This document shows, piece by piece, positions 5,203 through 40,955 of a stretch of DNA of 48,740 bases. The position numbers were made by a program, and so were the translations under genes. Within the stretch, counting starts at the first letter, position 1. Each line of letters opens with the position of its first letter. The stretch spans positions 1 to 48,740 of the forward strand of contig JACNLC010000046.1 of the NCBI GenBank assembly GCA_014381725.1, written 5' to 3'. The notes beneath the pieces are model-generated. The model was given only the letters and a program-made list of their open reading frames with translations, was not told the origin of the DNA and ran no database searches. This DNA comes from Fidelibacterota bacterium. Lineage in GTDB: Bacteria; Fidelibacterota; Marinisomatia; SCGC-AAA003-L08; JACNLC01.

Positions 5203-5264
5203 TTGATTATTTTATTTCCCTATTCCTTTACCGTTTGCGGATTATCACTTGTAACTTACCGCTT

Positions 5265-9509: not shown

Positions 9510-10453
9510 TTTTGCAATTCCTCTTGATAAATCAATTCGATAATTACAGAACCTACAATCCCCAAGCTACGAGCAGAACAATTTTCAGGAATATCTTGTA
9601 GTGTATGCCAATAATTTATATCAGCATTCGGATATTGAAAATCAATAATATCAACTGCTGGAATTCCAGTATTATCAAACAAAACTTTGTGGTCATCAGT
9701 CACTGCGGACCCAAATAAATACTTAAATTCAATAAAACCTAAACTTGTAGCTATTGCCCAAATTTTAGTCACAACATCCGGTGCTTGTTGATATGAATTC
9801 CATTCAATCGGAATTTCCAACTCAGTATCACCAACCATATCCAAACAGACCGCATATTGCGGGTATGGTCTTGGAATTTTTTTCGAGAATAATTTCGTAC
9901 CTATACCAAAACCTGATGGATCACCAGCTTCACCCATATCTTCGCCATCAACAAATAATAAATCAACTCCGATATTTTCCAATGGATTTTCATCTAAAAT
10001 TTCTGCAATTGTCATTAAAACTGCAATTCCGCTAGCTCCATCATTAGCGCCAATTATTGGCTTGATCCTATTTTCAATTATTAAATCCTTATCAGCAATT
10101 TCTCGAGTATCCCAGTGAGCCATTAATAAAATTCTGTTTTCCATTGATGGATTGAATCTAGCAAAGATATTTGTTAATCTAACTGTATCATTTTTGATTG
10201 GATGTAAAGTTGTTTCGTTCATTACAATCAATTCATCTACTAGAGGATTAAGAAATTTCTGAAAATATTCTGCAGTTTTAGAATGTCCTTCCGAACCAGG
10301 GAATCGTGGGCCAAACTCACATTGTTTTTCTAAATATTCTATTGCTTTAGCTCCACTGAAATATGGGATATCCTGCGAAAAAACAGTACTCATTGCTAAC
10401 AAAAGTACAAAGAACTTTATAAAATTATAAACTATTTGATTTTTAACTATCAT
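9506..10453 (-). CDS. Glutaminyl-peptide cyclotransferase, M28 family
   Basis: The 315-aa product has a signal peptide (LLLAMSTVFS) with predicted cleavage before QDIPYFSG. It then shows the zinc-peptidase-fold motifs of bacterial and animal-type glutaminyl cyclases: FGPRFPGSEGH, LLMAHWDTRE, GANDGASG (metal Asp), LFVDGEDMGE (metal Glu), WNSYQQ, and INYWHTLQD (metal His). The enzyme converts N-terminal Gln of exported proteins to pyroglutamate. In Bacteroidetes the mature N-terminus after signal peptidase is often Gln, which this enzyme caps. Its ATG shares a base with the sprA stop (TAATG), so the two are translationally coupled. An aminopeptidase of the M28 family is the alternative, but the DGEDMGE and WHTLQD segments favour the cyclase. 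Confidence 0.83.
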   Translation of the reverse strand: MIVKNQIVYNFIKFFVLLLAMSTVFSQDIPYFSGAKAIEYLEKQCEFGPRFPGSEGHSKTAEYFQKFLNPLVDELIVMNETTLHPIKNDTVRLTNIFARFNPSMENRILLMAHWDTREIADKDLIIENRIKPIIGANDGASGIAVLMTIAEILDENPLENIGVDLLFVDGEDMGEAGDPSGFGIGTKLFSKKIPRPYPQYAVCLDMVGDTELEIPIEWNSYQQAPDVVTKIWAIATSLGFIEFKYLFGSAVTDDHKVLFDNTGIPAVDIIDFQYPNADINYWHTLQDIPENCSARSLGIVGSVIIELIYQEELQK

Positions 10454-13400
10454 TATCCTTGAATCTTGATATGCACATTAAATCCAAAATCTTTTTCATA
10501 CCGTGCTCCATTTATTAAATCATTGGAGTATTTATACATAAAATGAACACCTCCATTTACATATCTAGTAAAACTGTAAATTATTTTTGGTACAATCTCC
10601 CAAGATGTTTTGTGTAACTGTTCTACAAATATGCCGTTCACATCAGGTCTCAGTGTAATATCATCGTTATAAGATGAATTTATTTCAAACGAAATATCAT
10701 TTGAAATATCAAAATCACGAAAGAAAAATAATGGGATTGTAAATCCTCCTCTATGACTATATTTAATTTTCCCAGTTAAAGAATTCTTTATAATTCGGTC
10801 AGTTGTCGTTCCGCTATTTTTAATGTTAAGTGTGTGTTTAATATTAAAATTAATATCAACAGGTCTTCTACCTTTAGTTGTTGCAGTTAAGCCAAAAAGC
10901 GGAGAAAACACTCGAGAATAATCTGATGATTTTTGTTCCCCTTCTTGAAATGTTGTTGCCTTATCTCCGGTAAAATTATGACTTATTGACATTGATTTTA
11001 GAATTTTGTTTAAGAAAGGTAATTTTTCCATACCCGACCAATTAACTCCCCAGTTAATAAAAGGTAATCCATCTTCACCGTTATTACCAATTGGGAAATA
11101 TGATGTCTTTTTTGTTTCAGTTTCTTGCCCACCAGACTGAATAGTCAAAGTAGAATTATCCTTATATTGAAATGTTGTATTGATTTTAGATGTAATTCTC
11201 GCTCCTGAGCTTAATGACAAGTCATTAGTGTATTTATGCGAAAATCCAGGAATCCCAGATAAATGGTAAGGTAAATCCGTAGAATCTACTAACCCAAATC
11301 TGAAATCATAACTTGGATGGCCATCAAGATTACTAAAACTATGATTTAAGTTCTTTTTGTAATTAACGGATAATGGAGACAGCTTAGATGCCAAAAAGTG
11401 AATTGGCTTGAAAATTAATGCTAAAACTTTATTCTGAGTTTCTTCACCACTTGATTGTGAACTTTGTGATGACCCACGACCTCTACCCGATCTTCCTGAA
11501 GAGCTGCTAGAACCTCCCGGTTTGTAGATTAACTCGACTAGGTCTTTTGGAGTGATGTTCACACTTGCACTAAAAGCATTTGTTGAACTGACATTTGATG
11601 AACGCAATGTATCTACTATAGAATTTAGCTTCCAAGTGTATGATGAGTTATAAGTTAGTTTTGGTTTTAACCACTTTAGGTAATCTGGAGAAAATGTATT
11701 GTTCAAACTCTCTGAAATATTGGTTACAATTCCTGGAGACATTTTTTGAGCAAAAAATATTTTATTGTTCATATACTCAACGAGATCACTTTCAATATTC
11801 TTAGTGTACGATGATGTGAAACTCTTAGTAAACTGTTGTGTTAATGAAAAATTCCTTGTCATTTTGAAACTTGGTCGCTCTGTAATTGTACCAGCTCTTT
11901 GTTCTTCAATTTCATTAAAATCTTTTAGAGCTATTTTTGCTGACCATTTTTTTGGTGACCAATAAATTCTTGAATCTGAAATTACATCACCAATTAGTGG
12001 TACTTTTTTCATAAACGAAAATGGTCTCCAATAATTTTCATTACTGAATGAATACGAATATGAAATATCTCCTTTATAATCTTGCTTGAATTTATTCCTT
12101 ATTTGAGTATTGGAACTAAAAGAATGAATAGCTGACAAATGTATAGAAAGTTTATCAATCGTATATTTTGGGAGCCAGTGGTCACTTCTAGAAGTTTTAC
12201 TAAATGATGTAGATACGGATACAGTACTTGATTTAGTTTTAACTGAATCTGGTGCATCTGAAATAGAACCAAGCAAAATGTCCGAACCTGGTTTATATTT
12301 TGGTGAAGTTACATTGCTTGAGTAATTTATTGTAATTGGAGTTTTTATGCCCCAAGAAGATGGTAAAAACAAATTTGGATTAAACTTTGTATTGATAGAG
12401 TATTTTTCGTTTGTGCTGCCATTTCCTAAATGTTCTTGCAGTCTGTGAAATTCAGCATCGGTTTTTTCATATGATGATGTAACACTCATTAGATCGGCCA
12501 TTTCTAGCATACCATAAAATCGCATTGCCCGACCTTTTTCCCTTTTAACTTCTGTCATTCGCAATTCATCAATTAGGACTTCTCCATATATTCTATCATC
12601 TCCTGTATTCTGGACTCCAACTATAACATATTCAATTCTGTCAATTGATGGTTTCCCTTTAATTCGCACTTTTCTCCAAGAATTACCAATTACCTCATAC
12701 CATTCGCAAATGCCTGATATTTCATCACAAAAATTTGGTGGCACATCTCTGTATCCATTTCCATTTTCATCTTCAAATTCTTCGCAACCTAGATCATTAC
12801 AATCAAAAACCAAATTAAATTCATCACCTTCGGGATTTACTATTGAATCAAAATTATCATTATTTGGGTCTTCAGGATTTGCTGATTTATCAATCAAAAC
12901 AGTTTCCCCTAATTCTAAATAATATTCGAAAGTTAGAGAATCCAAACATTCACCCCAACCATTTTCAAATTCGCTAAAGCAACCATCCAAACCGGTGTCA
13001 TAAAATGGTTCTGCATCGGTTATACTGAGTTTATAAGAGGATAATCCTGCAATATCAATATTGATATGATTGCGAGGATCCCAACCATCGTTTGTTAAGA
13101 GTACATCTTCATATATTGGTTGAATAATTTCATAGTATTTATCTTCATCTTGACCAAACTTGAACATCATTTGCACATAAACTGAATCGTCATCAATCCA
13201 ATCTCCGCCTGTTTCTTCAGGTTTACCTGATACAAACATTTCCATATTTTTATACGCAAAGAAATTCTGTCTTTTACTCGTAGGAATTTCAATAACTTTT
13301 TTAATTGCTACTAATGAGTCTGCACCTATACCCCCCTCGTTAAAATCTAGTACAAGCGATTGTTCTTTTTCATAAACACCATAGTATTCGTCGTATTCTA

Positions 13401-16400
13401 CAACTACTCCAGGTGGTGATTTATATTCTGTATTTTCTTCAGTATTTGTTACAGCAACAGAAAATGTCGTGTCTGGAACAAAAATCATACTATCGAGTGA
13501 TGCTACACCAAGTTCTTCCCATTCGTTACCTATAATTTCGAATTTTGCAATTTTTATTGCTTCTTCTGTTGTTGTTTCAAAATTATTTGCCCAAAGACGA
13601 ATAAATTTAACTTCTGTCCATTCTACATCAGCTCCATCTGATTTTTCAAAATCAGAAAGCAATATTCTATATAGTTTCCATCCAGGACCGCCTTCAGTAA
13701 CTGGTAAATCAATTTTCGGTTTTAATTCATAAGTGAAATAACCATTCCTGAAATTGGGACTGTAATCCTTATTTAAATCTTCTGTATCAGGAAGAGTGTA
13801 TCCTGCTGATTGACCATTTCCCTCAGTACCATTGATTTGGCTATAATCAGAACTGCCTTCGGTATAGTGCCAATTATCACCATTTGGATCACCTGTTAAA
13901 TTGGGTGGATTATCAAAATCACATCCACCGTCTCCAACTTCATATTCGTCAGTACAGCCATCGAGCCCAGTATCTTCCCCTTCGTCAAGAGCATCATTCC
14001 CTCTGTTCCCAAAAATCAATTCATCTTCAGTATCCAAACTCCCATTATTGTTTATATCTTCACTAATGTATCCAATATCAATATGAAGAGTCAAATCATC
14101 ATTTTGCACATCTTCAGAATTAAGCCAAATATCCAAATATTTACTGTTACTTTGATCATAATCGCTGGAATACAATGAAGTAGTTATACCATTCCAGCTG
14201 TCAGAATTCCCAGATTCAGATTCTATATAAGTATTCAAAACTAGAATTCTTGTAGTGTTATTTTGTGCAACTGTTGATGTTTGTTGATTAGGCCAAATTT
14301 CTTTAGTTTCAATTTCATAATATGGATTATACCACGACATTTTTATTCTATCATCAATGAATTCACCTTCAGGTGGAGATGCCATTTTCCAAAGTTTTTG
14401 TTGAAGATTTATAGAAGTTGTGCGTTTTGACGATTCAAAGTCGTCAATAAATGCTTGCCCTAAAGGATTTGGATTTGGAATAACTTCAGCATATTCTCCT
14501 TCGAACATAAATCTTGATGTTTTAGTAGTTTCAATAAATGGTAACCAATCTACAGCTCTAGTTAAAAAATCAAAATTCTTTTGATATTTTCCATTTATGT
14601 CCCAAATAAAATTTTGAATTGGTTCGTAGCCAATATCCACTTTTTCATCTGTAATTGACTGATTGTAGTACAGGGCAGTAAAACCTATAAACGCATCGTC
14701 AGAAAAATCGTATTGCAATCGAGTTCCAGCCATTATTTTTTTGTCAAATGATACAATTTCATTTTCTTCAAAAGTAACAGCTATGTCATTAGTTGGGTCT
14801 AAAGCATCAGGATTTAAAAAATTGAGAGTTCCAGAAAAACCATCGATCGTATAATCAACACCTTCAACTAAAGTTTGTCCATTTAGCTTAACTTCTGCAC
14901 TTCCCTCTTTGTATAGAAAACCAAGTTCTAAAGAAGCCGGTCGTTGCGAAGAAGATTTTACTTTTAGAATAAACTCATGTTCAGCTGAAATATCTTGTGT
15001 GTTTGTAGAGTAATACATTGATGGCCCAGAATCCTCGTCATCGGAAAAATCACCATCGGGATCGTTAAGAGGAGTATCAAAAATTTCGTTCAACTCAGAA
15101 TTATTATTCCCCCAATATAAGTCGCCATTATCGTAGGGAGTTCCATCTGGATAAGTTCTTGGATTGTTATCATAAGAGAATGGTAAATAATTTGGGAAGA
15201 ATAAAAATCCTCTACTAAAATCAATGATATTTACAAACTGTTTATCTATTATCCCATCTGGAACAGCTACGCCAGATTCGTCTTGCGTATCCAACCCAAA
15301 TAATTCCAAAAATGATGTACCGTTTGGGCTGTAAGTTTCAATACCTTCTTCACCTTTTTCATGAACAATTTCAAGTTCAAATCCATCGGGATTAATATTC
15401 ATCGAACCAAGAGAATATACATTCTTCATCATCAACGGCCAAGTCGCTTTTGATGCTGTGGCTGTACCATCAGATTTAAGAAGTTTTAATGTGATTTCAG
15501 TATCCCATATCCCATTATTATTTAAATCTTCAAATGGTTCCCCAGCTTCCCATTCCTCACTTCCATCAAGATCTGTGTATGGTTCACCTGAGTATTGGAG
15601 ATAATCTATATTACCAATAGGAGGTAACCCACTCGGAGTAATATCCTGAGATTCGGAATCTCTCGTTCCGATAGTGTAAGCTATTCCAACAGCATCAGTA
15701 CTACCAACCGTAATAAGGCGGATATATCCCAAAAGCTGATTTATCTCATAATCAACATCTCGAACAAGACGCACCCAATCACCAGATTCTGTAATACTAT
15801 TATTCTCATATGGTCCGGTAGTTGGATCTAAATAAGCTGTTCCGTAAATTTTTCCAGAAACATTTGCAGATGTTCTTTTGTAAACTTCAAATCTTTCAAT
15901 TACTCTATTTGGATTATATGAATGTGAAAAATCAGAATTCAAAGGATAATACAAATTTTTGAAATCCTCATCAATAAAGTAAAAGTTTTTAGAAAAATTA
16001 TTGTCATCAATAGTAAATTCTTGTGCTGTCCCTCCAACAGGAAGATCCACTCTTGATTTTTTCACTTTTTCTTGAGATGCAATTGTAGTTATAGACAAAG
16101 GTCCCAACTGATTCTTTAATTTGATCCCAAAAAGTCCTTCACTTTTACTACCACTTTGATTTACAAATTTCGTTCCTGTTAATGACAAATTTATATTTCC
16201 GGCTTCGATGGATTGAAGAATTCTATCTTCATCTGCTTCGTATTTAATTAGCATATCATTTTCCCAAGAAAATGTAGATTCAGAATTTTGTTTGACTAAA
16301 ATTGATATATTTCCAATATTACCTTCAATATCAAAATTTTGTTGCTGTTCAAAATCTAAATCCCAAGTTTTTCCTTCTTGAAAACTGGTTTGTGTTTTTT

Positions 16401-16932
16401 CTTGGTCTTGAAAAATAACCTTCCCCGACATATCAATTCCACCTTTGATGCTAAGCGATACTTCATGTCCAGCGACTGCTGTATCAACAATTTTCCAGGA
16501 TTTGCCAGCTCCTCTCGGTCCTATATCCTTTTTTATATCAGTTAATTTTTTGACAATTTTTTCACGAAATGCAGTTTGGAAATTTCTTTTGAATGATGTT
16601 TTTGCATACCACTTATAATTTACAACAATAGGAATTCTGAATATACTACCATCAAAAGTTTCTTCGATGATGAATGCATCGGTGTTTATTGCTGTTAAAT
16701 ATTCCGTTTTGAGTTTATTAATTTTATAATCCAATAAAAATGTGTTCCACAAGGAATCTGAAGTAACAAAACTCAAAGTTTGAGGATGATATTCAAATGG
16801 TTTTATAACACGATTTAGAAAATCTGGTTGATTTAAAGGAAAGGATCTTCCTTCGTTCGTAGTTTCAGCAAATAAAATTTCCCCAAACAACAAAATTGCT
16901 AGGTACACCATACCTGCAAGATATTTTATCAT
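10453..16932 (-). CDS. sprA: SprA, outer-membrane translocon of the type IX secretion system
   Basis: From the ATG at 16932 the product is 2159 aa. A GTG 33 bases upstream would add 11 residues, but the ATG gives a better signal peptide (MIKYLAGMVYLAILLFGEIL). SprA is a very large barrel that passes folded T9SS substrates through the outer membrane. Family features seen are GPRGAGKSWKIVD and VSLSIKGGIDMSGKV near residues 150-180, FVEQLHKTSWEIVPKI near the end, an EFEVYKRT-type segment in the first third, and an aromatic-rich C-terminal half. It is slightly shorter than typical Bacteroidetes SprA. The middle carries acidic, Cys-containing insertions (DLNNNGIWDTE, DINNNGSLDTED, DTGLDGCTDEYE, DTGLDGCFSEFE) that look like calcium-binding loops, and a Ser/Arg/Gly low-complexity stretch (SSSSGRSGRGRGSSQSSQSS) near residue 1800. 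Confidence 0.9.
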   Translation of the reverse strand: MIKYLAGMVYLAILLFGEILFAETTNEGRSFPLNQPDFLNRVIKPFEYHPQTLSFVTSDSLWNTFLLDYKINKLKTEYLTAINTDAFIIEETFDGSIFRIPIVVNYKWYAKTSFKRNFQTAFREKIVKKLTDIKKDIGPRGAGKSWKIVDTAVAGHEVSLSIKGGIDMSGKVIFQDQEKTQTSFQEGKTWDLDFEQQQNFDIEGNIGNISILVKQNSESTFSWENDMLIKYEADEDRILQSIEAGNINLSLTGTKFVNQSGSKSEGLFGIKLKNQLGPLSITTIASQEKVKKSRVDLPVGGTAQEFTIDDNNFSKNFYFIDEDFKNLYYPLNSDFSHSYNPNRVIERFEVYKRTSANVSGKIYGTAYLDPTTGPYENNSITESGDWVRLVRDVDYEINQLLGYIRLITVGSTDAVGIAYTIGTRDSESQDITPSGLPPIGNIDYLQYSGEPYTDLDGSEEWEAGEPFEDLNNNGIWDTEITLKLLKSDGTATASKATWPLMMKNVYSLGSMNINPDGFELEIVHEKGEEGIETYSPNGTSFLELFGLDTQDESGVAVPDGIIDKQFVNIIDFSRGFLFFPNYLPFSYDNNPRTYPDGTPYDNGDLYWGNNNSELNEIFDTPLNDPDGDFSDDEDSGPSMYYSTNTQDISAEHEFILKVKSSSQRPASLELGFLYKEGSAEVKLNGQTLVEGVDYTIDGFSGTLNFLNPDALDPTNDIAVTFEENEIVSFDKKIMAGTRLQYDFSDDAFIGFTALYYNQSITDEKVDIGYEPIQNFIWDINGKYQKNFDFLTRAVDWLPFIETTKTSRFMFEGEYAEVIPNPNPLGQAFIDDFESSKRTTSINLQQKLWKMASPPEGEFIDDRIKMSWYNPYYEIETKEIWPNQQTSTVAQNNTTRILVLNTYIESESGNSDSWNGITTSLYSSDYDQSNSKYLDIWLNSEDVQNDDLTLHIDIGYISEDINNNGSLDTEDELIFGNRGNDALDEGEDTGLDGCTDEYEVGDGGCDFDNPPNLTGDPNGDNWHYTEGSSDYSQINGTEGNGQSAGYTLPDTEDLNKDYSPNFRNGYFTYELKPKIDLPVTEGGPGWKLYRILLSDFEKSDGADVEWTEVKFIRLWANNFETTTEEAIKIAKFEIIGNEWEELGVASLDSMIFVPDTTFSVAVTNTEENTEYKSPPGVVVEYDEYYGVYEKEQSLVLDFNEGGIGADSLVAIKKVIEIPTSKRQNFFAYKNMEMFVSGKPEETGGDWIDDDSVYVQMMFKFGQDEDKYYEIIQPIYEDVLLTNDGWDPRNHINIDIAGLSSYKLSITDAEPFYDTGLDGCFSEFENGWGECLDSLTFEYYLELGETVLIDKSANPEDPNNDNFDSIVNPEGDEFNLVFDCNDLGCEEFEDENGNGYRDVPPNFCDEISGICEWYEVIGNSWRKVRIKGKPSIDRIEYVIVGVQNTGDDRIYGEVLIDELRMTEVKREKGRAMRFYGMLEMADLMSVTSSYEKTDAEFHRLQEHLGNGSTNEKYSINTKFNPNLFLPSSWGIKTPITINYSSNVTSPKYKPGSDILLGSISDAPDSVKTKSSTVSVSTSFSKTSRSDHWLPKYTIDKLSIHLSAIHSFSSNTQIRNKFKQDYKGDISYSYSFSNENYWRPFSFMKKVPLIGDVISDSRIYWSPKKWSAKIALKDFNEIEEQRAGTITERPSFKMTRNFSLTQQFTKSFTSSYTKNIESDLVEYMNNKIFFAQKMSPGIVTNISESLNNTFSPDYLKWLKPKLTYNSSYTWKLNSIVDTLRSSNVSSTNAFSASVNITPKDLVELIYKPGGSSSSSGRSGRGRGSSQSSQSSGEETQNKVLALIFKPIHFLASKLSPLSVNYKKNLNHSFSNLDGHPSYDFRFGLVDSTDLPYHLSGIPGFSHKYTNDLSLSSGARITSKINTTFQYKDNSTLTIQSGGQETETKKTSYFPIGNNGEDGLPFINWGVNWSGMEKLPFLNKILKSMSISHNFTGDKATTFQEGEQKSSDYSRVFSPLFGLTATTKGRRPVDINFNIKHTLNIKNSGTTTDRIIKNSLTGKIKYSHRGGFTIPLFFFRDFDISNDISFEINSSYNDDITLRPDVNGIFVEQLHKTSWEIVPKIIYSFTRYVNGGVHFMYKYSNDLINGARYEKDFGFNVHIKIQG

Positions 16933-16980
16933 GTAGAAATTTTTTAGCTTAGCATAGATAAACACTGTAGCAGTAAATCG

Positions 16981-17616
16981 CTAGGCATTCTCCTTATTGG
17001 GTGTGGATATTTTTGAGTCTGTGAAAATAGAAAATTCCCGTTGCAATAATTGCTTCATTTTTCTAATAGCATTTCCTCTATGGGAAATTTTTCCTTTTTC
17101 ATTTTCAGTCATTTCAGCAAAAGTTTGATCATATACAGATATATAAAATACAGGATCATACCCGAAACCACCAAATCCTTTAAGATTTTCGGTTATGTGT
17201 CCTTCTACGCATCCTTCTGTAATGAGTTCCGTAGAACCATCTGTAAAAGCAACTATTGTGCGAAATCTAGCTGTTCTTTTATCGTAAGGAACACCTTGCA
17301 TTTCCAAAAGTAATTTTGATACATTATCCTTATAAGAACAACTAACACCAGCATAGCGAGCTGAATAAACTCCAGGCCTTCCGTTTAGTGCATCAACTTC
17401 CAATCCGGTATCGTCAGCAATTGCGGGAAGTCCAGTTAGTCTGTTAACTGTCATCGCTTTGAATTTTGCGTTTTCTTCCAAAGTTTTTCCATCCTCTGGG
17501 ATTTCACCTATTTCCGGAAAATCATCCAAAGTTAAAATCTGCAATCCTAATGAATTAAGAAGGAGCTGTAATTCTTTCCGTTTGTTTTTATTGTGTGTTG
17601 CTAATACAATTTTCAT
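16981..17616 (-). CDS. rdgB: XTP/dITP pyrophosphatase (RdgB/HAM1 family)
   Basis: The 211-aa protein shows the full HAM1 pattern: ATHNKNKRKEL at the N-terminus, EENAKFKA, ADDTGLEVDALNGRPGVYSARYAG in the centre, GFGYDPVF, TFAEMTENEKGKISHRGNA near the C-terminus. The enzyme hydrolyses non-canonical purine triphosphates (ITP, dITP, XTP) to monophosphates and keeps them out of DNA and RNA. A short non-conserved tail of about 15 residues follows the family core. It is the first gene of the sprA operon, 48 bp upstream of the chosen sprA start, and its promoter must lie in the AT-rich 185 bp before the tRNA. Confidence 0.95.
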   Translation of the reverse strand: MKIVLATHNKNKRKELQLLLNSLGLQILTLDDFPEIGEIPEDGKTLEENAKFKAMTVNRLTGLPAIADDTGLEVDALNGRPGVYSARYAGVSCSYKDNVSKLLLEMQGVPYDKRTARFRTIVAFTDGSTELITEGCVEGHITENLKGFGGFGYDPVFYISVYDQTFAEMTENEKGKISHRGNAIRKMKQLLQREFSIFTDSKISTPNKENA

Positions 17617-17912: not shown

Positions 17913-18109
17913 ATTCGAATAAAATTATATACACTATGACTTACAGAATTGAATAATAATCGTTTAATGTAATAGACAGTTAAAGGATACTCTACTTAAA
18001 ACAAAGTTTACATCGCATTAAATCACTTGTTAAAAATATTCTTTCTTAATGTTATTTTGCCTTAATCTAATATTCCTTGTAAATTTTGGTAGTTATTAGA
18101 GAGATATTT

Positions 18110-19633
18110 ATGAAATACACCACAATCGTTTTTTCTGTAATTTTACTATCTGGAAATATACTATTGGCTAATTGCGATGCAGATTTCGTTGAAATTGATG
18201 ATATTTGCTATTGGGAATCTGATATCTTTGTTCTTCAAGATATTATCAACACCAATAGTTTAGATATTGAAAATCCAGTTGAACTTGGTGACCAAATATG
18301 GTCAGAGGGACGATTAGTATATCTCGAATTAAATTTTGCACTACTTTCGTATATCCCAAATAATTTTGGAAATCTAAATGAGTTAACAGAATTACATTTG
18401 TCTTCCAACCAATTTTCAATCCTCCCAGATAGTTTTGGGTATCTAGATAATCTTGTTATACTAGATTTATCCTACAATCAACTTTTTGAATTACCTTCCA
18501 GTTTTGGGAATATTGGAAATCTTACCGAATTGGATTTGTCTCATAATCAATTGACCTATTTACCAGAAAGTTTTGGATTTATTAGTCTGCTAAATACATT
18601 AAATTTATCGGAAAACCGACTTGCAGTTCTGCCATCAAACTTCGGAAGTTTGGTAAACTTATTGGATTTGGATTTATCATCTAACCAACTTTATTATCTG
18701 GACGATAGTTTTGGGGATTTAGTTAATTTGATATATCTAGATTTATCATCTAATCACTTATCATTATTACCAGAAAACTTTGGTCAGATAGTTAATCTAG
18801 AAGAGTTAATTTTGTATTACAACCAGCTAACTGATTTACCTGAATCATTTTGTAATTTAATAAATTTGGAAACTTGTTATCTCCATATGAATGAGTTGAC
18901 ATCACTCCCTGAAAATATTGGAAATCTTACTAATCTTAAAAAAATATATTTACAAATTAATCAGTTGACATATTTACCAGAAAGTATAGAATATTTGGAC
19001 AGTTTGGAGATTGCAAGTCTCTATTTAAATGAGTTGACTTCCCTTCCAGAGAGTATTGGAAATTTGAGTAATCTAAAAAAACTATTAGTTTACGAAAACT
19101 CAATAAATACACTTCCAGCAAGTTTATGGAATTTAGATGAATTAAATGTTTTGAAACTGCATTCAAACGAACTATCAGACGAAATTCCCGAAGACATTTG
19201 TAATTTAACAAATTTGGTTTGGTCAGTTGATAACAATTCTCCTGAAGAATCTACAATTTTTAATAATAACTATTGTCCTGAATATCCAGACTGCCTTGTA
19301 AATTTTATTGGCGTGCAAGATATATCAGATTGTGAAATTATAAATATCGAAAATAACTTCGTAGAACTTTCACAATTTACATTGTTTACTGCTTACCCAA
19401 ATCCATTTAATCCAACAACTACAATTAGTTATCAACTCCAAGCTCCAAGTTCCGTGCTACTTGATATTTACAATATGAATGGCCAGTTGATTGAGCAATT
19501 GGTAGATAACAGAGTAGAAACCGGTTATCATTCAGTTGTTTGGGATGCTAATAATTATACAAGTGGGATATATTTTACTAAATTAACTGTTAATAACTTA
19601 ACATCTACACAGAAATTAATATTGCTGAAATAA
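18110..19633 (+). CDS. Leucine-rich-repeat surface protein with T9SS sorting domain
   Basis: The ATG at 18110 is used; the open frame extends to a TTG at 18086, but the signal peptide starts here (MKYTTIVFSVILLSGNILLA). The 507-aa product has about 14 leucine-rich repeats of 23 residues between roughly residues 75 and 385, with the pattern LTELDLSxNQLxxLPxSFGxL. The regular LPxSFG ending is typical of the bacterial 23-residue class. The C-terminal ~85 residues form a T9SS type A domain (AYPNPFNPTTTISYQL, GIYFTKLTV, TQKLILLK). It should therefore be secreted and anchored or released at the surface, with a binding role inferred for the repeats. It is flanked upstream by a tRNA terminator and about 200 bp with no clear promoter boxes, and downstream by a convergent gene. 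Confidence 0.87.
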   Translation: MKYTTIVFSVILLSGNILLANCDADFVEIDDICYWESDIFVLQDIINTNSLDIENPVELGDQIWSEGRLVYLELNFALLSYIPNNFGNLNELTELHLSSNQFSILPDSFGYLDNLVILDLSYNQLFELPSSFGNIGNLTELDLSHNQLTYLPESFGFISLLNTLNLSENRLAVLPSNFGSLVNLLDLDLSSNQLYYLDDSFGDLVNLIYLDLSSNHLSLLPENFGQIVNLEELILYYNQLTDLPESFCNLINLETCYLHMNELTSLPENIGNLTNLKKIYLQINQLTYLPESIEYLDSLEIASLYLNELTSLPESIGNLSNLKKLLVYENSINTLPASLWNLDELNVLKLHSNELSDEIPEDICNLTNLVWSVDNNSPEESTIFNNNYCPEYPDCLVNFIGVQDISDCEIINIENNFVELSQFTLFTAYPNPFNPTTTISYQLQAPSSVLLDIYNMNGQLIEQLVDNRVETGYHSVVWDANNYTSGIYFTKLTVNNLTSTQKLILLK

Positions 19634-19649
19634 GCATTCTAAAATGCTA
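19632..19649. terminator. Small hairpin between convergent genes
   Basis: The arms AGCATT and AATGCT (19633-19638, 19643-19648) flank a 4-nt loop exactly where the LRR gene and the facing unknown gene end. It could end transcription in either direction, but the stem is only six pairs. Confidence 0.3.
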
Positions 19650-20610
19650 ACATAGCTAAAATAATACTACTGATTGAAGGTATAATCCACTTTTTCAATT
19701 CTTTAACACCAGATTCACCACTTATTTCCAATTCTCCTTCAAATCCAGATTCTGTATATATCGGATATTCTATGTTATCAAAATAAACTGTTTGGACATA
19801 TTCGATTTTTTTATCGGAAGTATATAGATATTTCTTGTGTTTTTCCATAAAGTTTTCTGACAAATATCGTAGCCAATAATTATCTCCAGTTTTCAAATCT
19901 GATATTTTATTTTTATGTGTAAAAAGTGGAGATATTTCTTTAGCAGTAATCAGATTATTTAATAATTTATTTTTTTGCAATTTAGTTATATCTTTTGAGT
20001 AATCTTCACTATACAAATAATAAGCTTTTTGTAGGATCATAAGTTCTTTTTCAATTAGTCCAGGATTTATTTCCTCATCGGATTTAATAAAATTTACTTT
20101 GATATATTTGCTCCCTAACACTAGCTTTTGGGCAACATGAGTTTCAATAAAATTATCTGGTTGTAATTGAAACAACTGCTTATTCTCTGGATTATATTTT
20201 AGTTGAATTTCTTCTGATTGTATTATATCTTTAGTTTCAATAAGATAATATTGTTTTATATTTTCGACAACGAAAGTATTGAATTCGTGATTATTAAACA
20301 GCGATTTACATTTAGCACTATTACCCTTTATATTTCGACTGATATCAGAATCCTTAACAAGAATTATTTCTGGTAATTTAGCATTCGACCCATAAATTGT
20401 AATTTCATCACCTGCAATGATTTCACTTGAAGATTTTAATGTAAATTTTATGCTGTCGATTTCTGTCAGAGTTACACCTGTCTCACTCAATTGCAACATA
20501 TTGTAAGCAATTTTTATAGGAACAGTACTCTTAATGATTGTTTCATTATATATCTTTTCGCTGAAAAGTAAATTTACTAAAAAGACAATAAATACAATAT
20601 AAAACTTCAC
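19639..20610 (-). CDS. Unrecognised exported protein with C-terminal membrane anchor (motor operon)
   Basis: I choose the GTG at 20610, which has AAGGA seven bases upstream and gives an immediate signal peptide (KFYIVFIVFLVNLLFS). The alternative TTG at 20637 overlaps the previous gene. The 323-aa product matches no family I recognise. After the signal lie about 290 polar residues, rich in Lys, Ile and Glu and probably mixed alpha/beta, with a helical stretch (LIEKELMILQKAYYLYSED). The protein ends in a hydrophobic segment (WIIPSISSIILAMLAF). Topology is thus probably periplasmic with a C-terminal anchor. It is the last gene after the ExbB-like and ExbD-like genes, 16 bp from the latter, so it is a candidate partner of that motor. 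Function is unknown. Confidence 0.65.
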   Translation of the reverse strand: MKFYIVFIVFLVNLLFSEKIYNETIIKSTVPIKIAYNMLQLSETGVTLTEIDSIKFTLKSSSEIIAGDEITIYGSNAKLPEIILVKDSDISRNIKGNSAKCKSLFNNHEFNTFVVENIKQYYLIETKDIIQSEEIQLKYNPENKQLFQLQPDNFIETHVAQKLVLGSKYIKVNFIKSDEEINPGLIEKELMILQKAYYLYSEDYSKDITKLQKNKLLNNLITAKEISPLFTHKNKISDLKTGDNYWLRYLSENFMEKHKKYLYTSDKKIEYVQTVYFDNIEYPIYTESGFEGELEISGESGVKELKKWIIPSISSIILAMLAF

Positions 20611-20626
20611 TTTATATTCCTTCGTA

Positions 20627-21151
20627 TTATTCTTCAAGTATTATAATATCAGCGACTGTATCCCAGTTCCTGATTTGCCTTAGAATAAATTCATTATTAG
20701 TAGTTTTTACAGAATCCCACTCAAAATAATCAAAATTCTCATTCAAGTATGATATGCTAAAATCTACCTTCTCTTTTGTAACAAAACAATTGATAACCAA
20801 TTCAGTTAAAATTCCATTTATTTTTCTAACTTGTTTTAATTGATATGAATTTATAGGTGTTGTAGAATTATAAATGTAACGATAATATTCTCCTTCGGAT
20901 AAATCATTAACTTTCTGATTGATCTGTTTAATATCACTATATACATCCAATTTATCTCGTAACTTAGTGAAATCTGAAATTGAAATAGAATCAATTATAT
21001 CTGCGTCTTTTGTAAAAAGTCTTGTACTAAGTCCAGCGGTTGGATTGAGAACGATGAATAAAATCCCGAGAGTAATTCCCAAAACGGCCATCAACATAAA
21101 TGTGTCTAAGGAAATTAGATAAATTTCACCTGTGTCTTGCGATCTTTTCAT
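20627..21151 (-). CDS. ExbD/TolR/MotB-like single-pass membrane protein
   Basis: The 174-aa protein has a short cytoplasmic N-terminus and one membrane helix (about residues 16-36, LDTFMLMAVLGITLGILFIV). A soluble domain of about 135 residues follows. Asp16 sits at the start of the helix, the position of the proton-carrying Asp in ExbD, TolR and MotB. The periplasmic part is not recognisably OmpA-like, nor a standard ExbD domain. It is the second half of a probable proton-driven stator pair with the MotA/TolQ/ExbB-like protein encoded 12 bp upstream. The call rests on gene order, topology and the Asp; direct sequence similarity is weak. Confidence 0.55.
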   Translation of the reverse strand: MKRSQDTGEIYLISLDTFMLMAVLGITLGILFIVLNPTAGLSTRLFTKDADIIDSISISDFTKLRDKLDVYSDIKQINQKVNDLSEGEYYRYIYNSTTPINSYQLKQVRKINGILTELVINCFVTKEKVDFSISYLNENFDYFEWDSVKTTNNEFILRQIRNWDTVADIIILEE

Positions 21152-21163
21152 AAAATCAGCATT

Positions 21164-22726
21164 CTATGATTTAAATGAATCCTTAATTTTTGAGAATCCT
21201 TTTTGCAAAGAATTAATCGATTCTTGAGAAAAGATCCTAAGAGTATCAAAAGTGCTAATTACAAACATTTTTAGATTTCTCGTTGAATATTTCAAATCCT
21301 TTACTTCTGTTTTATACTGTTTGATTTCATCAGATAATTCCCTAAATGAATTAACTAATCCGTTAAGTTCTTCTTTAAGTGATTTCATATCTTGATTGAC
21401 TTCAGTCAAGTTTTGTTCTGAATCACTTAATTTAGTTGATACATTTCCTAATGTAGAATCTAACGGATTTAGTTTGTTATCTAAAGAGATAAAATCTTTG
21501 TTGATTTTGTTTATTTCTTTTTCACTTTGCTGAATTCTATCCGAAAATAATTCAATTACAGAACTTACAGGGTTTAGTTTATCGTTCAATTTTTCAATAT
21601 CAATATTAAATTCTGTAATTTGAACATTGGATGATTTGAAGTTTCCTGCAATCTCTCTAACAGAATCATTGAGTTGAGATATATCCGAAATCAACTTACT
21701 TTTTTCAACTCCAAATTGTTTTAGTTTTTCTGATGCAGTTTGAATATTCTCAGAAAATGTTGCAATCTCTAAATTAACTTTGCCAATAGAATGTTCAACA
21801 GAAGCAGGATTAGATGCAAATCCTTCAAATTTAAGAAATTCAGAATAAGTTTCATGTAACCATTTTTCATTATTCTCACTACGAAGAAGAATAGTAACAC
21901 CAAATTCTATTATCAGAGTAATACCATGTGCTGTAATACTAGTTGCTACAGCAATAGAGTTCCCCAATAATGATTGTTTTACTTGATCTATAAATGTCTT
22001 ATTTAAAGAAACACTACTTGCATCAAAATTAATTCCTTGATGCATTGCAATCCACATTTCAAAAAACGCAAGTAGTAATCCGATTAGCGTACCAAAAATT
22101 CCAAGGCGGATAATCCAAATCATTGATTTATTTGTATTTTCAGTAAATGCATAAGTGTTATCGCTTTCCATATTGAAGTAATCTTCATAAAACTGAGAGA
22201 AATATGTTTTAGAACTTTCAATTTTGAACGAATTATACAAGCTTGAAATGAATTTTTTTGGAAACCCTTGATTATGTTGTGTTGATATTAAATTTAAATT
22301 TGTAAATCTGTTATTTAGATCTTGAATAACTGATTTGTCAATTTCGTTTTGTTCTTTATAGCACTTCCATAGATACCAAATCCTTTTAAGAACTACGAAG
22401 TTAAACAAAACTAACAAAACAATCATCGCATAGTAAACATAAATAGAATTCCGACGATCAAGTAATTTTGAAACTGTTGTAGAAAATTCTCCTTCACCAT
22501 CCTCTATTAAACTACTTAAAGCATTTTGATCAGTAGCTCCAAATTGAGATGTAGTTTTACCAATTTCTAAAGTTGCTTTAGACATTATGATCGTTAACAA
22601 AATCATGACGATCGTAATCGTTATTAACTTGATTTGTTTTATTTGATAAAAATACTTAGAATAGAAACCTTTCAATGACTGAAATATAGACTTATTTGTT
22701 TCTAAATTTTCCAAATTTTGATTCAT
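21164..22726 (-). CDS. MotA/TolQ/ExbB-like proton-channel protein with long coiled-coil tail
   Basis: The start is the ATG at 22726 with GGAG upstream; an in-frame TTG lies 18 bases earlier. The 520-aa protein has four membrane segments, at about residues 33-52, 97-118, 203-225 and 252-279. The last two carry family hallmarks: RLGIFGTLIGLLLAF, and LLGNSIAVATSITAHGITLI, comparable with the GLLGTxxG and ATAxGLxxAIPA helices of TolQ/ExbB/MotA. From about residue 310 to the end it is a hydrophilic heptad-rich coiled coil (IEKLNDKLNPVSSVIE, LREL-type repeats). ZorA of Zorya defence systems also has a MotA-like channel with a long tail. It probably forms the ion-conducting stator ring in the inner membrane, with a cytoplasmic tail. 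Confidence 0.72.
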   Translation of the reverse strand: MNQNLENLETNKSIFQSLKGFYSKYFYQIKQIKLITITIVMILLTIIMSKATLEIGKTTSQFGATDQNALSSLIEDGEGEFSTTVSKLLDRRNSIYVYYAMIVLLVLFNFVVLKRIWYLWKCYKEQNEIDKSVIQDLNNRFTNLNLISTQHNQGFPKKFISSLYNSFKIESSKTYFSQFYEDYFNMESDNTYAFTENTNKSMIWIIRLGIFGTLIGLLLAFFEMWIAMHQGINFDASSVSLNKTFIDQVKQSLLGNSIAVATSITAHGITLIIEFGVTILLRSENNEKWLHETYSEFLKFEGFASNPASVEHSIGKVNLEIATFSENIQTASEKLKQFGVEKSKLISDISQLNDSVREIAGNFKSSNVQITEFNIDIEKLNDKLNPVSSVIELFSDRIQQSEKEINKINKDFISLDNKLNPLDSTLGNVSTKLSDSEQNLTEVNQDMKSLKEELNGLVNSFRELSDEIKQYKTEVKDLKYSTRNLKMFVISTFDTLRIFSQESINSLQKGFSKIKDSFKS

Positions 22727-22756
22727 TAACTTGTAACACTCCAAATCTATCTACTG

Positions 22757-23770
22757 TTAATAATTGAACGACATTCCTATTTTTATGGGAGAATCAATAA
22801 GGGACTTATATTCATTACTATGAAGGCTGTAAGCAATGTCTATAATTAATGGGACACCTCTATAATTTACTAATACTCCAAATCCTATACCAAAACTATT
22901 AGATGAAATATTTGATACTTGATTATAAGGTAATTCGATTCCAGAACGGAAAAATAATTTAAAATCTACTTTAGATAAATTGTGTGTTACTTCACAACCC
23001 AATGCAAAACTTGATAAAATATAATCTCCAGATTTTGTATCTAAATTTATTGTTATACTAGTATATTCCGACTTAGATATTTCCCCACTAATTCCCATCG
23101 ATACAATTTTTTGTACATTATAAATATCTCGTTCTAGTTTAATCACTGAACCAAAATCTAATGACAAAAACTTTTTCTTTATAAAATCACCAAAATAGTC
23201 TTTAATCGAATAAATTATTCCAAAGTCTGAACCTGCTAAATAAAATTTGCTATATAATGTTGAATATGATCTGTACGCTGTTTTTACATTCAAACCTATA
23301 TTCATCCCCTTAACAGATTTAGCTGAAGAGAAAATCATCATAGTTTCAGTACTATTGAAAGAACCAATTTCCTCAATATCTCCATTAACTATTGATGTTT
23401 GAGTAATTTCACTAATACCTAAGTTTAGAAAATTGAATGCAAAATTTATATTTTCAGGAGTCCAATTCCAACGAACTCCTCCACACCAATAATTCCACTT
23501 ATCATTTATATCTGGAATATTAATGGCTGAAGGATATCTAAATATCAAACCAGCTTCCCACTTTGATTGACTTATATTCAAACCAGCTGGATTCCAATAT
23601 GTAGAAAAAACTCCTTGAGAAGATGCAACTCCTGTATTTCCCATAGCAATTTCTCGTGGAGTTATTGGAGTCTGATAAAAAGTATTTGGAGCACCTCCAT
23701 ATTCTCCAGCAGAAAAAACAATACTAAGAAAAGTAATTGTTAATATTATTTTATATGATTTTCTTAACAT
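22757..23770 (-). CDS. PorV/PorQ family outer-membrane protein (motor operon)
   Basis: The 337-aa product begins with a signal peptide (YKIILTITFLSIVFSAGEY). The PorV-type start follows: GGAPNTFYQTPI, then REIAMGNTGVASSQ and STYWNPAGLN. The NPAGL turn and the REIAMGxTGVA motif are characteristic of the family. The C-terminus is beta-rich and ends in an aromatic residue (MSFNY). It is the second PorV-like locus in the window and lies 3 bp after the Ig-repeat surface protein and 30 bp before the proton-channel gene. A T9SS shuttle dedicated to the Ig-repeat protein is the simplest reading. Confidence 0.78.
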   Translation of the reverse strand: MLRKSYKIILTITFLSIVFSAGEYGGAPNTFYQTPITPREIAMGNTGVASSQGVFSTYWNPAGLNISQSKWEAGLIFRYPSAINIPDINDKWNYWCGGVRWNWTPENINFAFNFLNLGISEITQTSIVNGDIEEIGSFNSTETMMIFSSAKSVKGMNIGLNVKTAYRSYSTLYSKFYLAGSDFGIIYSIKDYFGDFIKKKFLSLDFGSVIKLERDIYNVQKIVSMGISGEISKSEYTSITINLDTKSGDYILSSFALGCEVTHNLSKVDFKLFFRSGIELPYNQVSNISSNSFGIGFGVLVNYRGVPLIIDIAYSLHSNEYKSLIDSPIKIGMSFNY

Positions 23771-23773
23771 AAA

Positions 23774-26599
23774 TTATTTCGATGCCATTATCCAGCTTGC
23801 TTTAATCTGATCACCGGATTTCAATAAGATGATATACAAACCTTGAGAAATATTGAAACCATCATCGTTTTTCCCATCCCACCATTTTTCGTGTTCTCCA
23901 ACAGAGTTTTCTATATCCCAGGTTTTTACCGTTTTACCCGCAGAATCTACTATTACAATCTTAGTTTTATTATCACTATTATCTGCAGGAACACTATATT
24001 CGATCAAAATTTCATTACCTATTGTAGCAGGATTTGGAGCTGTTTTAATAATATAATTTACTGCATTAACTGTAATAGTTACAGTAGCGATATCGCTGTT
24101 ACTTGTCCCATCATTTGCAACATAAGTAAATGTATCGATTCCAAACCAATTTTCATTTGGAGTATATATCGCTGACTCTACCTCTACCGTACCATTTTGG
24201 GGCTGTTCAACAATTTCAAAAGTAAGTACATCTCCATCTATGTCAGTTCCTGAAAATTCAATTTCTACAGAAATTCCTTCGGAAGTCTCAGTTGTTAAGT
24301 CTTCTGCAATTGGAATAACATTTATCGAATTAACCGTAAATATTACCGACTCAGAATCAAAATAACTGTTCTCTGTAATATCTGTGGCTGTAAATGTTAA
24401 CTGCTCAGACCCATTCCATATCAATGTTGGTGGGATGATTGTTACCAAATTATAATCATCTATCTCTACTAACAATTCACTATATCCTGTTACTGTCCAT
24501 ATCATTTCATCTCCATCATATTCAATTAGGTAATCGTCCAAATCAAACATCTCAAACTCTAAACCCTCATCTATCGTCTGATCCGGAATACCAACTACTT
24601 CTAAAGAATCATCTACCGCATTTACTGTAAGCGACACAATGGCAGTTGCTGATGTATCACTATTATCAATCGCAATATACGAAAAACTATCTTCACCATT
24701 AAAATGTTCATCTGATAAATACTCAAATGTTCCATCTACATTTAGCGTAAGTGTGCCGTGTAATACATCTTCAACAAGCTCGGCGGTCAATGGATCGTTG
24801 TCAATGTCAGTGTCATTAGCTAATACATTTTCAGTTGTAAACAAAATATCCTCATCAACTTCATAATTGTCGTTGACCGCTATCGGCACATTATTTACAG
24901 GATTTACTGTAAATACAGCAACATCAGAATCAAAATAACTGTTCTCTGTAATATCTGTGGCTGTAAATGTTAACTGCTCAGACCCATTCCATATCAATGT
25001 TGGTGGGATGATTGTTACCAAATTATAATCATCTATCTCTACTAACAATTCACTATATCCTGTTACTGTCCATATCATTTCATCTCCATCATATTCAATT
25101 AGGTAATCGTCCAAATCAAACATCTCAAACTCTAAACCCTCATCTATCGTCTGATCCGGAATACCAACTACAATTGGCGAATCATCATCTGGATCAACAA
25201 CTGTGAATATTGCTTCATCAGAATCAGAATATTCATTGTCAGTATTATCTGTTGCAGTAAAAACTATTGTTTCAGTGCCTTTCCAATTATCTGTTGGAAT
25301 TATTATTGTCGCCAAGCTGTATTCATTAATATTAATACTAAGATCGTCGTTGCCGCTATATCCCCAAATTATTTCATTGCCATCATATTCTGTTAGGAAA
25401 TCATCTAAATCAATAACTTGAAATAGTTCACCAACTTCAATTGTTTGATCATCAATTCCTGAAAGAACAGGCGGATTATCATTAGGGTCAATTACAGAAA
25501 ATAGTACTTCTTCGGAGTCTGATAGACTATTATCAGTAAGGTCTGTCACAGTAAAAGTTATCAATTCACTACCAAACCAAACTTCTGTCGGAGGTAGTAT
25601 AATTACATTATAGTACTCATCCATTTCTACTATTAATTCTAAATTCCCACTATGAGACCAAGTTATAGAATCTCCATCATATTCAGTCAAATAATCAACT
25701 AATATAAATTGAAGAAATTCACCTCCTATACCAATCGTTTGGTGAGGAATTCCAAATACAACAGGTGGGTCATCGTCAACATTTATAATTTCAAATTCTG
25801 CTACTGTAGTATCTACTCCGTCGTGAGGGTCTGAAAATATAAAGGATATTTCTTCAAATCCAAACCAGTTTATATTCGGAGGTTCAATAATGATTTCATT
25901 GGTTTCAGAATCTATGACACTCACTATTAAATCAAGACTGTTAAAACTCAAGTTTAGATCTTCAAAAGAATGATCCGGATCATAAATATAATCGTTGAGC
26001 ACTATCGTTTGAAACGAATCTCCTTCATTAATTGTTTGATTGGATAAACCCTCCAAAAAAATGGGATCTGTACTCAAATCAACTGCACAAATTCCTCCAA
26101 TATCAAACAATCCACTCAAGTCCCATCCGACATATTCAGTTGTCAAATCGAATATTTCTAGTTCTTCACCTGAATCATAATAACGAAAATACATATTTCT
26201 GTCAGATAAAAATCCATCAATGATATAAGGAGTTTCAGAATCGTCAGCATAAGCTAGCATCTGAATTGTCCTGTCATTTACAAATACTACTGCTCCAACA
26301 CACAACATTGAATCAGGATCTGCAATTTGATACATTGTTGTATCGCAAAATATCCCTACTTCATCTCCTTCTTCAAGAGATTCATTATATAATGTTGATA
26401 CACCTATGAAAATAGTTTCATAATTATCTGTTATATTAAATTGAAAATACTCAGTTCGAGCTGACTGATTTGATAAAAGTATTGAGGTAGAACATGATAT
26501 AATTAAAATAAGAAAATTGAATGATGCTATTTTCCCGCAACCAAAACCGGTATTTATCCCAAAATAAGTTAATATTTTATTAAATTTATAACGAATCAA
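23774..26599 (-). CDS. Large Ig/cadherin-like repeat surface protein with FlgD/T9SS C-terminal domain
   Basis: The only usable start is a TTG at 26599 (no ATG or GTG nearby), giving 941 aa. A hydrophobic signal segment (about residues 28-43, FNFLILIISCSTSILL) follows an unusually long polar N-terminus. A region of about 140 residues of unknown type follows (GDEVGIFCDT). Then come at least seven cadherin/Ig-like repeats, with openings such as IPDQTIDEGLEF and closings such as SEQLTFTATD. Two are VCBS/cadherin-like modules (NDNYEVDEDI, LANDTDIDNDPL). The C-terminal ~85 residues are a FlgD-like/T9SS sorting domain (KTAPNPATIGNEIL, DGFNISQGLYIILLKSG). It is probably an extracellular adhesin or filament. 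It heads an operon that continues into PorV-like and stator-like genes. Confidence 0.82.
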   Translation of the reverse strand: MIRYKFNKILTYFGINTGFGCGKIASFNFLILIISCSTSILLSNQSARTEYFQFNITDNYETIFIGVSTLYNESLEEGDEVGIFCDTTMYQIADPDSMLCVGAVVFVNDRTIQMLAYADDSETPYIIDGFLSDRNMYFRYYDSGEELEIFDLTTEYVGWDLSGLFDIGGICAVDLSTDPIFLEGLSNQTINEGDSFQTIVLNDYIYDPDHSFEDLNLSFNSLDLIVSVIDSETNEIIIEPPNINWFGFEEISFIFSDPHDGVDTTVAEFEIINVDDDPPVVFGIPHQTIGIGGEFLQFILVDYLTEYDGDSITWSHSGNLELIVEMDEYYNVIILPPTEVWFGSELITFTVTDLTDNSLSDSEEVLFSVIDPNDNPPVLSGIDDQTIEVGELFQVIDLDDFLTEYDGNEIIWGYSGNDDLSININEYSLATIIIPTDNWKGTETIVFTATDNTDNEYSDSDEAIFTVVDPDDDSPIVVGIPDQTIDEGLEFEMFDLDDYLIEYDGDEMIWTVTGYSELLVEIDDYNLVTIIPPTLIWNGSEQLTFTATDITENSYFDSDVAVFTVNPVNNVPIAVNDNYEVDEDILFTTENVLANDTDIDNDPLTAELVEDVLHGTLTLNVDGTFEYLSDEHFNGEDSFSYIAIDNSDTSATAIVSLTVNAVDDSLEVVGIPDQTIDEGLEFEMFDLDDYLIEYDGDEMIWTVTGYSELLVEIDDYNLVTIIPPTLIWNGSEQLTFTATDITENSYFDSESVIFTVNSINVIPIAEDLTTETSEGISVEIEFSGTDIDGDVLTFEIVEQPQNGTVEVESAIYTPNENWFGIDTFTYVANDGTSNSDIATVTITVNAVNYIIKTAPNPATIGNEILIEYSVPADNSDNKTKIVIVDSAGKTVKTWDIENSVGEHEKWWDGKNDDGFNISQGLYIILLKSGDQIKASWIMASK
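24351..24598. repeat. 248-bp perfect direct repeat, copy 1
   Basis: This segment within the Ig-repeat gene is identical base for base, by visual alignment, to 24924-25171. It encodes the repeat running from IPDQTIDEGLEF-like residues to ENSYFDSE. The distance of 573 bp is exactly 191 codons, so the frame is kept. Confidence 0.9.
24924..25171. repeat. 248-bp perfect direct repeat, copy 2
   Basis: Second copy of the identical 248-bp segment. Between the copies lies a different, VCBS-like module. Flanking bases differ at once on both sides, as expected from a recent duplication or gene conversion confined to this module. Confidence 0.9.
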
Positions 26600-39950: not shown

Positions 39951-40955
39951 TTGAATTATATTGGTTCAAAACACAAGTTAATACCGTTTATTAAAAAAAC
40001 GATTTATTCAGTAGTTGGACAAGATTTATCCAACAAAATTTTCTGCGATATATTTGCAGGGACTGGAATTGTAGGTCGTAATTTTAAAACAGAAGTCAAA
40101 ACAATAATTAGTAATGATTTAGAATATTACAGTTATATTCTCAATCAAAATTATATTGGTAATCATCAACCTATAATCAATCAAAATGAGTTAATATCTG
40201 AATTGAATTCCGTTAAGTCTTTAGAAGGTTTTATTTTTAAACATTATTGTCGCGGTGGAATTGAAAACCGTAAATATTTTTCTGATGAAAATGGGAAGAA
40301 AATTGATACTATTCGCCAGAATATTGAAAATTGGAAAACTAACAATAAAATTGACAATTGTACTTATTACTTTCTACTAGCAAGTTTACTTGAAAGTGCA
40401 GATAAAGTAGCTAATACTGCATCTGTATATGGCGCATATCTGAAACATTTGAAAAAATCCGCTTCAAAAATATTAATTTTATCTTCCGCAGAATTTGAAT
40501 TATGTGAAAACATACATCTTGTATTTCAAAAGGATAGTAATCAGCTAATAAAGGAAATTGAAGGAGACATTCTATATTTAGATCCACCTTATAATACTAG
40601 ACAATACGGAGCAAATTATCATATATTAAACACAATAGCAGAATATAAAGATTTTGTTCCGAAGGGTAAAACTGGATTGAACGAATATAAAAAATCAAAA
40701 TATTGCAGTAAACAAACAGTTACAGAAGAATTGGAATATTTAATTAGATATTCTCAATTTGAGTATATATTTTTGAGTTATAATAATGAAGGATTAATGT
40801 CAGTTGATAAAATCAAAAATATAATGGAAAAATATGGGAAATATGACTTATCATCAATAAATTATCAACGATTTAAAGCAGATAAAGATGAAAACAGAAA
40901 CCACAAAGCAAGTGAAACAAAAGAATATTTACATATCCTCCAAAAAAATGGATAA
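39951..40955 (+). CDS. D12-class DNA adenine-N6 methyltransferase (orphan)
   Basis: The 334-aa protein starts at TTG with NYIGSKHKL, the usual N-terminus of this group; the frame upstream has no ATG or GTG. Motif I is [10 protein letters not shown] (about residue 33) and motif IV is [10 protein letters not shown] (Asp211). This order, with a recognition region between, is the Dam-like D12/alpha layout. It transfers a methyl group from SAM to adenine in a specific DNA sequence, which cannot be read from the protein. No restriction partner is adjacent, so it looks solitary. The gene is strikingly A/T-rich and rich in Lys, Asn and Ile codons, hinting at recent transfer. Its last eight bases overlap rnhA. 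Confidence 0.85.

Follow-up and report, generated by a model that had tools for sequence, protein, structure and literature searches.

Five closely packed genes on the reverse strand of a Fidelibacterota genome (assembly GCA_014381725.1, contig JACNLC010000046.1, positions 1 to 48,740, the whole stretch of 48,740 nucleotides being referred to below as the window) occupy positions 19639-26599 and encode proteins that may form a single motor-driven surface fiber device, here called the cassette. In reading order, the products are a surface fiber protein of 941 aa (23774-26599) with a signal-like N-terminus, an N-terminal domain, cadherin/Big_9-type repeats and a cassette-specific tail; a probable 337-aa outer-membrane barrel of the PorV/PorQ family (22757-23770); a candidate MotA/TolQ/ExbB-like channel protein, subunit A (21164-22744); a 174-aa protein, subunit B (20627-21151), with one N-terminal transmembrane (TM) helix carrying Asp16 and a periplasmic domain; and an exported 332-aa protein with a C-terminal hydrophobic anchor, the proposed periplasmic link (19639-20637). 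Subunit A is 526 aa long when read from a TTG start and about 520 aa from an alternative ATG near 22726. Successive genes are separated by 3 bp, 12 bp (30 bp when counted from the ATG of A) and 12 bp, and the last two overlap by 11 bp. All five open reading frames that an initial annotation of this DNA had described as a close-packed, same-strand group were found, and their whole order and strand recur in another class, so that its view of the genes as one conserved unit stands.

Recurrence of the cassette in another class

A search of 245 genomes across the phylum revealed all five genes, in identical order and on the same strand, in Candidatus Neomarinimicrobiota isolate Dive96_bin1.149 (contig JAJRSW010000012.1; hereafter G237), a genome outside the class of the window's genome. 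The G237 genes encode a fiber of no fewer than 1216 aa (the contig breaks off before the start of the gene), a barrel of 332 aa, a four-helix protein of 388 aa, a B subunit of 193 aa and an exported protein of 491 aa, which also ends in a C-terminal helix and is the positional and topological counterpart of the 332-aa protein. Pairwise comparison of the window with G237 gave 34% identity for the fiber tail (E 1e-20), 26% for the barrel (E 2e-17), 31% for subunit A (E 2e-16) and 38% over 86 aa for subunit B (E 5e-6).

A combined profile of A and B recognized only the window's genome and G237 (2/245 genomes across the phylum); four of the other weak matches to this profile were inspected and represented Mrp antiporter or otherwise unrelated genes. 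Similarly, a DNA pattern of the B helix applied to 84,980 species returned 26 loci, with the G237 contig as the sole true relative. No relative was found for A in genome-contig and viral-contig collections, for the B and A+B alignments in the viral-contig collection, or in the plasmid and phage collections searched, and within the class pairwise searches with A (526 aa), B and the 332-aa protein gave chance matches only (three loci inspected). The motor genes were also absent, by motif and phmmer, from the neighborhoods of PorV matches (16 loci). The gene-neighborhood comparison proposed in the initial annotation hence came out two ways: the five genes keep their order in another class, but the motor genes are in none of the four family members examined. 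In G237, an IS1380-family transposase gene lies directly past the last cassette gene (5703-7004 of locus L122), in line with the view of the cassette as a rare accessory unit that is probably mobile.

The candidate motor subunits

Subunit A has four hydrophobic helices (about residues 32-50, 101-119, 209-227 and 269-287) followed by a C-terminal coiled coil (310-520). In both cassettes helix 3 begins with a GxxGTxxG motif, which elsewhere, among the loci scanned, was found only in the genome's two true MotA/ExbB genes; these ordinary genes stand beside exbD genes in one case and beside motB in the other. Between the window and G237, TM3 and TM4 are 43% and 45% identical, vs. 10-16% for TM1 and TM2, 10-23% for TM1/TM2 together with the loops, and 25% for a short alignable stretch of the coiled coil. 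Models of three families weakly match one and the same set of helices in A: PF01618 (E 3.9 in the window and 0.019 in G237, the latter with 15.2 of the 22.9 bits of the cut-off), ExbB (0.049, window) and ZorA_2 (0.025, G237). Further, hhalign comparison of A with MotA/ExbB alignments gave scores of 28-31 (MotA, 30.6), above all shuffles (maximum 24.2 for 20 column-shuffled controls per full-length comparison), with a probability of about 10-15% that is not decisive in absolute terms. Taken together, subunit A is a marginal but consistent match to the MotA/ExbB/ZorA superfamily and most likely the MotA/TolQ/ExbB-like channel originally suggested.

The single helix of subunit B is N-terminal, and its cytoplasmic end bears Asp16, within the invariant pattern SLDTFM.MA.LG.TLG (N-termini MRHEETDIYLLSLDTFMIMALLGLTLG in G237 and MKRSQDTGEIYLISLDTFMLMAVLGITLG in the window). 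This Asp-bearing helix is 67% identical between the two cassettes, as opposed to 17% for residues 61-174. An Asp at the cytoplasmic end of a single helix is the position used by MotB and ExbD, and the conserved TM3/TM4 of A and helix of B correspond to the channel-lining helices of known motors. D24 of ZorB is the corresponding Asp (PMC11890865). Searches of B with family models gave no match, and Pfam and NCBIfam returned no significant name for A, B or the 332-aa protein, with generic coiled-coil matches only. Based on its topology and conserved Asp, B behaves like the Asp-bearing partner of A, and the A/B pair is likely to be an ion-driven complex of the Mot/Exb type. The 332-aa protein has the signal-like start and C-terminal hydrophobic helix expected of the exported, C-terminally anchored protein of the initial annotation.

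The fiber tail and its barrel

The 941-aa protein matched Big_9/cadherin-like repeats (Pfam, 1.9e-42) and ended in a FlgD_ig domain (4.2e-8). Its matches to the type A sorting tail of the type IX secretion system (T9SS) were under the cut-offs (TIGR04183, 22.1 vs. 23 bits; PF18962, 15.3 vs. 27 bits), whereas two ordinary secreted proteins encoded in the window reached 43-44 bits on PF18962; therefore, the fiber does not end in a usual type A tail. The T9SS-type end assigned to the fiber previously holds to the extent that there is a FlgD_ig end and a match near the TIGR04183 cut-off, but the tail is atypical and specific to the cassette. The conserved tail, an atypical T9SS/FlgD_ig-type domain, comprises the last 155 residues (about 787-941; 23774-24241, reverse strand), and its top match among the 245 genomes was the tail of the G237 cassette (75.3 bits, 40% identity). 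Other tail-only matches scored around 41 bits, and the stronger matches that remain were located, in whole or in part, in the repeat before the tail. In contrast to the tails, the fiber bodies of the two cassettes showed no detectable likeness (score 66 vs. 61 for shuffled sequences, standard deviation 11). A tail whose best match is in the other cassette, at the end of an unrelated body, suggests that the tail is read by parts of the cassette. The fiber gene also contains a direct repeat of 300 bp (24306-24605 and 24879-25178, 92% identical), the result of one repeat unit having recently been duplicated.

The 337-aa protein matched the PorV/PorQ family model NF033709 at 2.5e-15 over residues 34-336 (56.9 bits, under the 90-bit cut-off of the model), in keeping with a PorV-like barrel, and its best relative among the fetched loci was the barrel of the G237 cassette (49 bits; next, 36 bits). 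Two T9SS surface proteins, PorU and PorZ, retain their C-terminal tails, which are bound to PorV and PorQ, respectively, and cognate PorV-like barrels have been suggested to protect such retained tails (PMC10202324). An atypical tail together with a dedicated barrel suggests, by analogy with the PorU and PorZ tails, that the fiber is exported by SprA and kept by its own barrel.

Genomic setting

The gene for SprA/Sov, the T9SS translocon (2170 aa; 10453-16965, reverse strand; TIGR04189, 6.8e-195), lies outside the cassette but in the same window, at a distance of 2.7 kb, and its product is the likely exporter of the fiber; the initial annotation was silent on this gene. The sprA block contains ham1, sprA, a gene for an M28 peptidase, prmA, genes for a 308-aa protein and for a 533-aa protein with a PorZ-like tail, and genes for two PorV/PorQ-family barrels, and the gene order of the T9SS core cluster that includes sprA (window 3558-17616) recurs in relatives at both family and order level. 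The opposite flank of the cassette carries pntAB, then men genes. In four family members, the sprA block and the pntAB/men block are on different contigs and have other genes beside them, and hence the five genes plus a leucine-rich repeat (LRR) protein gene (18086) make up a variable stretch between conserved blocks. The LRR protein (18086-19633) is encoded on the opposite strand, with the 3' end of its gene adjoining the end of the cassette, and scores 43.8 bits for a type A T9SS tail, a good match. The other T9SS cargo encoded in the window includes a subtilase (37950-39698). Elsewhere in the window (39951-40955), there is a D12-class DNA adenine methyltransferase gene that may be a mobile modification gene, its G+C content being a low 26.5%, as against 33% in the window as a whole.

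SprA was present in all 20 relatives searched. GldL (TIGR03513), on the other hand, gave no match in the window's genome at E values up to 1 and passed its cut-off in none of the 30 genomes of the order, and no positive-control genome passed it either. The source of energy for the T9SS in this lineage is puzzling, given SprA in 20/20 and GldL in 0/30 genomes (the latter without a positive control above the cut-off). The contrast drawn originally between the cassette and the usual GldL/GldM motor does not apply as worded, since GldL being undetected in the genome and the order leaves no known second motor with which to contrast the cassette.

Discussion

We favor, at slightly better than even confidence, the hypothesis that the five genes constitute a self-contained cassette whose ion-driven A/B motor works on a single fiber of its own, exported by the T9SS and held by the PorV-like barrel. 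Under this hypothesis, the 941-aa immunoglobulin (Ig)-repeat fiber would be exported by the host T9SS via the SprA encoded nearby and would stay at the cell surface with its atypical tail still attached to the PorV/PorQ-type barrel of the cassette, in the manner of PorU and PorZ, whose uncleaved tails are bound to PorV and PorQ. At the inner membrane, a pentamer of A around a dimer of B would form an ion-driven motor of the MotAB/ExbBD/GldLM type (5:2 stoichiometry and ion flow both being predicted), with Asp16 of B as the ion-carrying residue. The periplasmic domain of B and the 332-aa anchored protein, as a link, may then relay force, or a signal carried by a change in conformation, via the barrel to the fiber, so that the fiber would be held, let go, extended or moved depending on the ion-motive force, outcomes that the sequence cannot separate.

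As judged from sequence comparison, conservation is concentrated where a motor-and-cargo system would need it, i.e., in TM3/TM4 of A, the helix of B, the barrel and the fiber tail. That motor helices, barrel and tail are kept together while the exposed fiber changes is the strongest evidence that motor and fiber are one device. It is important to note that several points weigh against this hypothesis. Only two cassettes are available as examples, both in draft assemblies and one (G237) with its fiber gene cut at the start. None of the family matches of A is significant on its own, and the AlphaFold models (mean pLDDT 40.6 for the single-sequence model of A, and 38.7 in a further run) are too poor to show the fold. 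Subunit B scored 12-14 with hhalign against ExbD and MotB profiles, no better than shuffles; that is, of the ExbD-like helix of the initial annotation, the single N-terminal helix and its conserved Asp16 stand but profile similarity to ExbD/MotB does not. The pairing of the 332-aa and 491-aa exported proteins is marginal, their alignment score being reached by 7/500 shuffles. Further, conservation of tail and barrel could reflect the common descent of a transferred block and not direct contact, and motor-barrel contact, ion flow and expression are all presumed.

Alternatively, the motor might move the PorV-held fiber along the cell surface, as in gliding. Flavobacterium provides a precedent, with GldLM being a 5:2 motor that powers both secretion and the motion of the adhesin SprB (PMC8986121), and the cassette has a motor, a periplasmic part, a barrel and a fiber. 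However, track or ring proteins similar to GldJ, GldK or GldN are not part of the cassette, and the MotA/MotB genes carried elsewhere by the genome might provide motility in a different way; hence, we regard a gliding-type module as rather unlikely. The same Flavobacterium motor, which powers secretion as well, together with the location of SprA 2.7 kb away and the lack of a GldL match in the genome and above the cut-off in 30 genomes of the order, could also be taken to mean that A/B is an alternative T9SS motor that replaces GldLM and drives export through SprA. We consider this unlikely, as a general T9SS motor would not be expected to occur in 2/245 genomes when SprA is found in 20/20 relatives; in addition, sprA does not adjoin the cassette in the G237 stretch examined, and the GldL search had no control above the cut-off.

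It is quite unlikely, in our view, that the cassette is an import system of the ExbBD/TolQR type, in which A/B would energize the uptake, through the barrel, of a substrate captured by the surface protein. ExbBD do energize uptake, and A weakly matches ExbB (0.049), but the cassette encodes no TonB-like protein, plug domain or TonB-dependent receptor, its barrel is of the PorV/PorQ family, and its surface protein is an Ig-repeat fiber with a sorting-type tail. The two halves of the cassette, the fiber-barrel pair and the motor pair, might also travel together as a conserved block without acting on each other, given that their physical link is presumed, that there are only two instances, and that an IS1380 transposase gene adjoins the G237 block; yet members of two classes share gene order, strand and close spacing in spite of wholly different flanks, which makes this very unlikely. 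Finally, a Zorya-like phage defense system, with a MotA-type protein bearing a coiled-coil tail and an Asp-bearing partner, is highly improbable, since the coiled-coil tail after the last TM helix and the weak ZorA_2 match of the G237 A subunit (0.025) come without ZorC, ZorD or ZorE effector genes at either locus and without a peptidoglycan-binding domain match in B, the PADLOC models gave only coiled-coil matches (ZorA1 just 0.04, over the tail), and genes for an outer-membrane barrel and a surface fiber belong to the same operon.

A self-contained motor-and-fiber cassette would not be without parallel. The combination of genes was initially described as an unfamiliar one, but a close functional analogue exists in Salmonella, where the genes for the proton channel SiiAB, a member of the Mot/Exb/Tol family, accompany the gene for SiiE, a giant Ig adhesin. 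SiiAB governs the surface retention and function of SiiE in a manner dependent on the proton motive force, SiiE secretion being independent of SiiAB (PMC6272769, PMC12607715). By analogy, the cassette looks like the T9SS-side counterpart of SiiAB-SiiE: in both, a proton-channel-type pair (a predicted one in the cassette) is encoded with an Ig-repeat adhesin (in Salmonella within pathogenicity island 4, SPI-4). In contrast to the cassette, with its T9SS-like export and a PorV/PorQ-type barrel as the holder, SiiE is a type I secretion substrate and SiiA has a peptidoglycan-binding domain; SiiA was not among the PDB matches of B.

The GldLM/PorLM motors with SprB or RemA share with the cassette an ion-driven 5:2 motor (predicted for the cassette) that acts via the periplasm on T9SS-exported surface proteins (PMC8986121, PMC10202324). 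Unlike the cassette, however, with its four TM helices and coiled-coil tail in A and a B subunit of 174 aa, GldL is a protein of two TM helices and the periplasmic part of GldM is large, and the cassette lacks GldJ/K/N and comes as one cassette per fiber. PorU:PorV and PorZ:PorQ resemble the cassette in pairing a surface protein that has a retained tail with its own PorV/PorQ-type barrel (tail retention being predicted for the cassette; PMC10202324), but PorU and PorZ are sortase and anionic lipopolysaccharide (A-LPS) delivery proteins and have no dedicated motor. ZorAB likewise combine a MotA-like subunit that has an extended cytoplasmic helical tail with an Asp-bearing partner (PMC11890865), whereas the cassette has outer-membrane and surface partners in place of defense genes and a peptidoglycan-binding domain match. 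Lastly, ExbBD, TolQR and MotAB match the topology of both subunits, the GxxGTxxG helix and the Asp at the start of the B helix, but their family models are below cut-off for cassette A and silent for B.

If our hypothesis is correct, there would be at least three contexts in which motors of the MotA/ExbB type have been combined with surface adhesins, i.e., type I secretion (SiiAB), gliding (GldLM) and the cassette described here. The cassette would represent a compact five-gene unit with a variable fiber body and a constant tail, barrel and motor. By extension, and more tentatively (we give it less than even chances), it may be a transferable one-fiber machine of a new class that runs through the whole envelope and works its fiber mechanically, consisting of a 5:2 motor, a periplasmic link, a barrel and a tagged fiber, in which the fiber body is swapped while the tail and the machine are kept. 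Such a unit would provide a small, tractable system for inner-membrane motors that act on outer-membrane-anchored fibers and would bear on how T9SS-linked functions are energized in a lineage without detected GldL.

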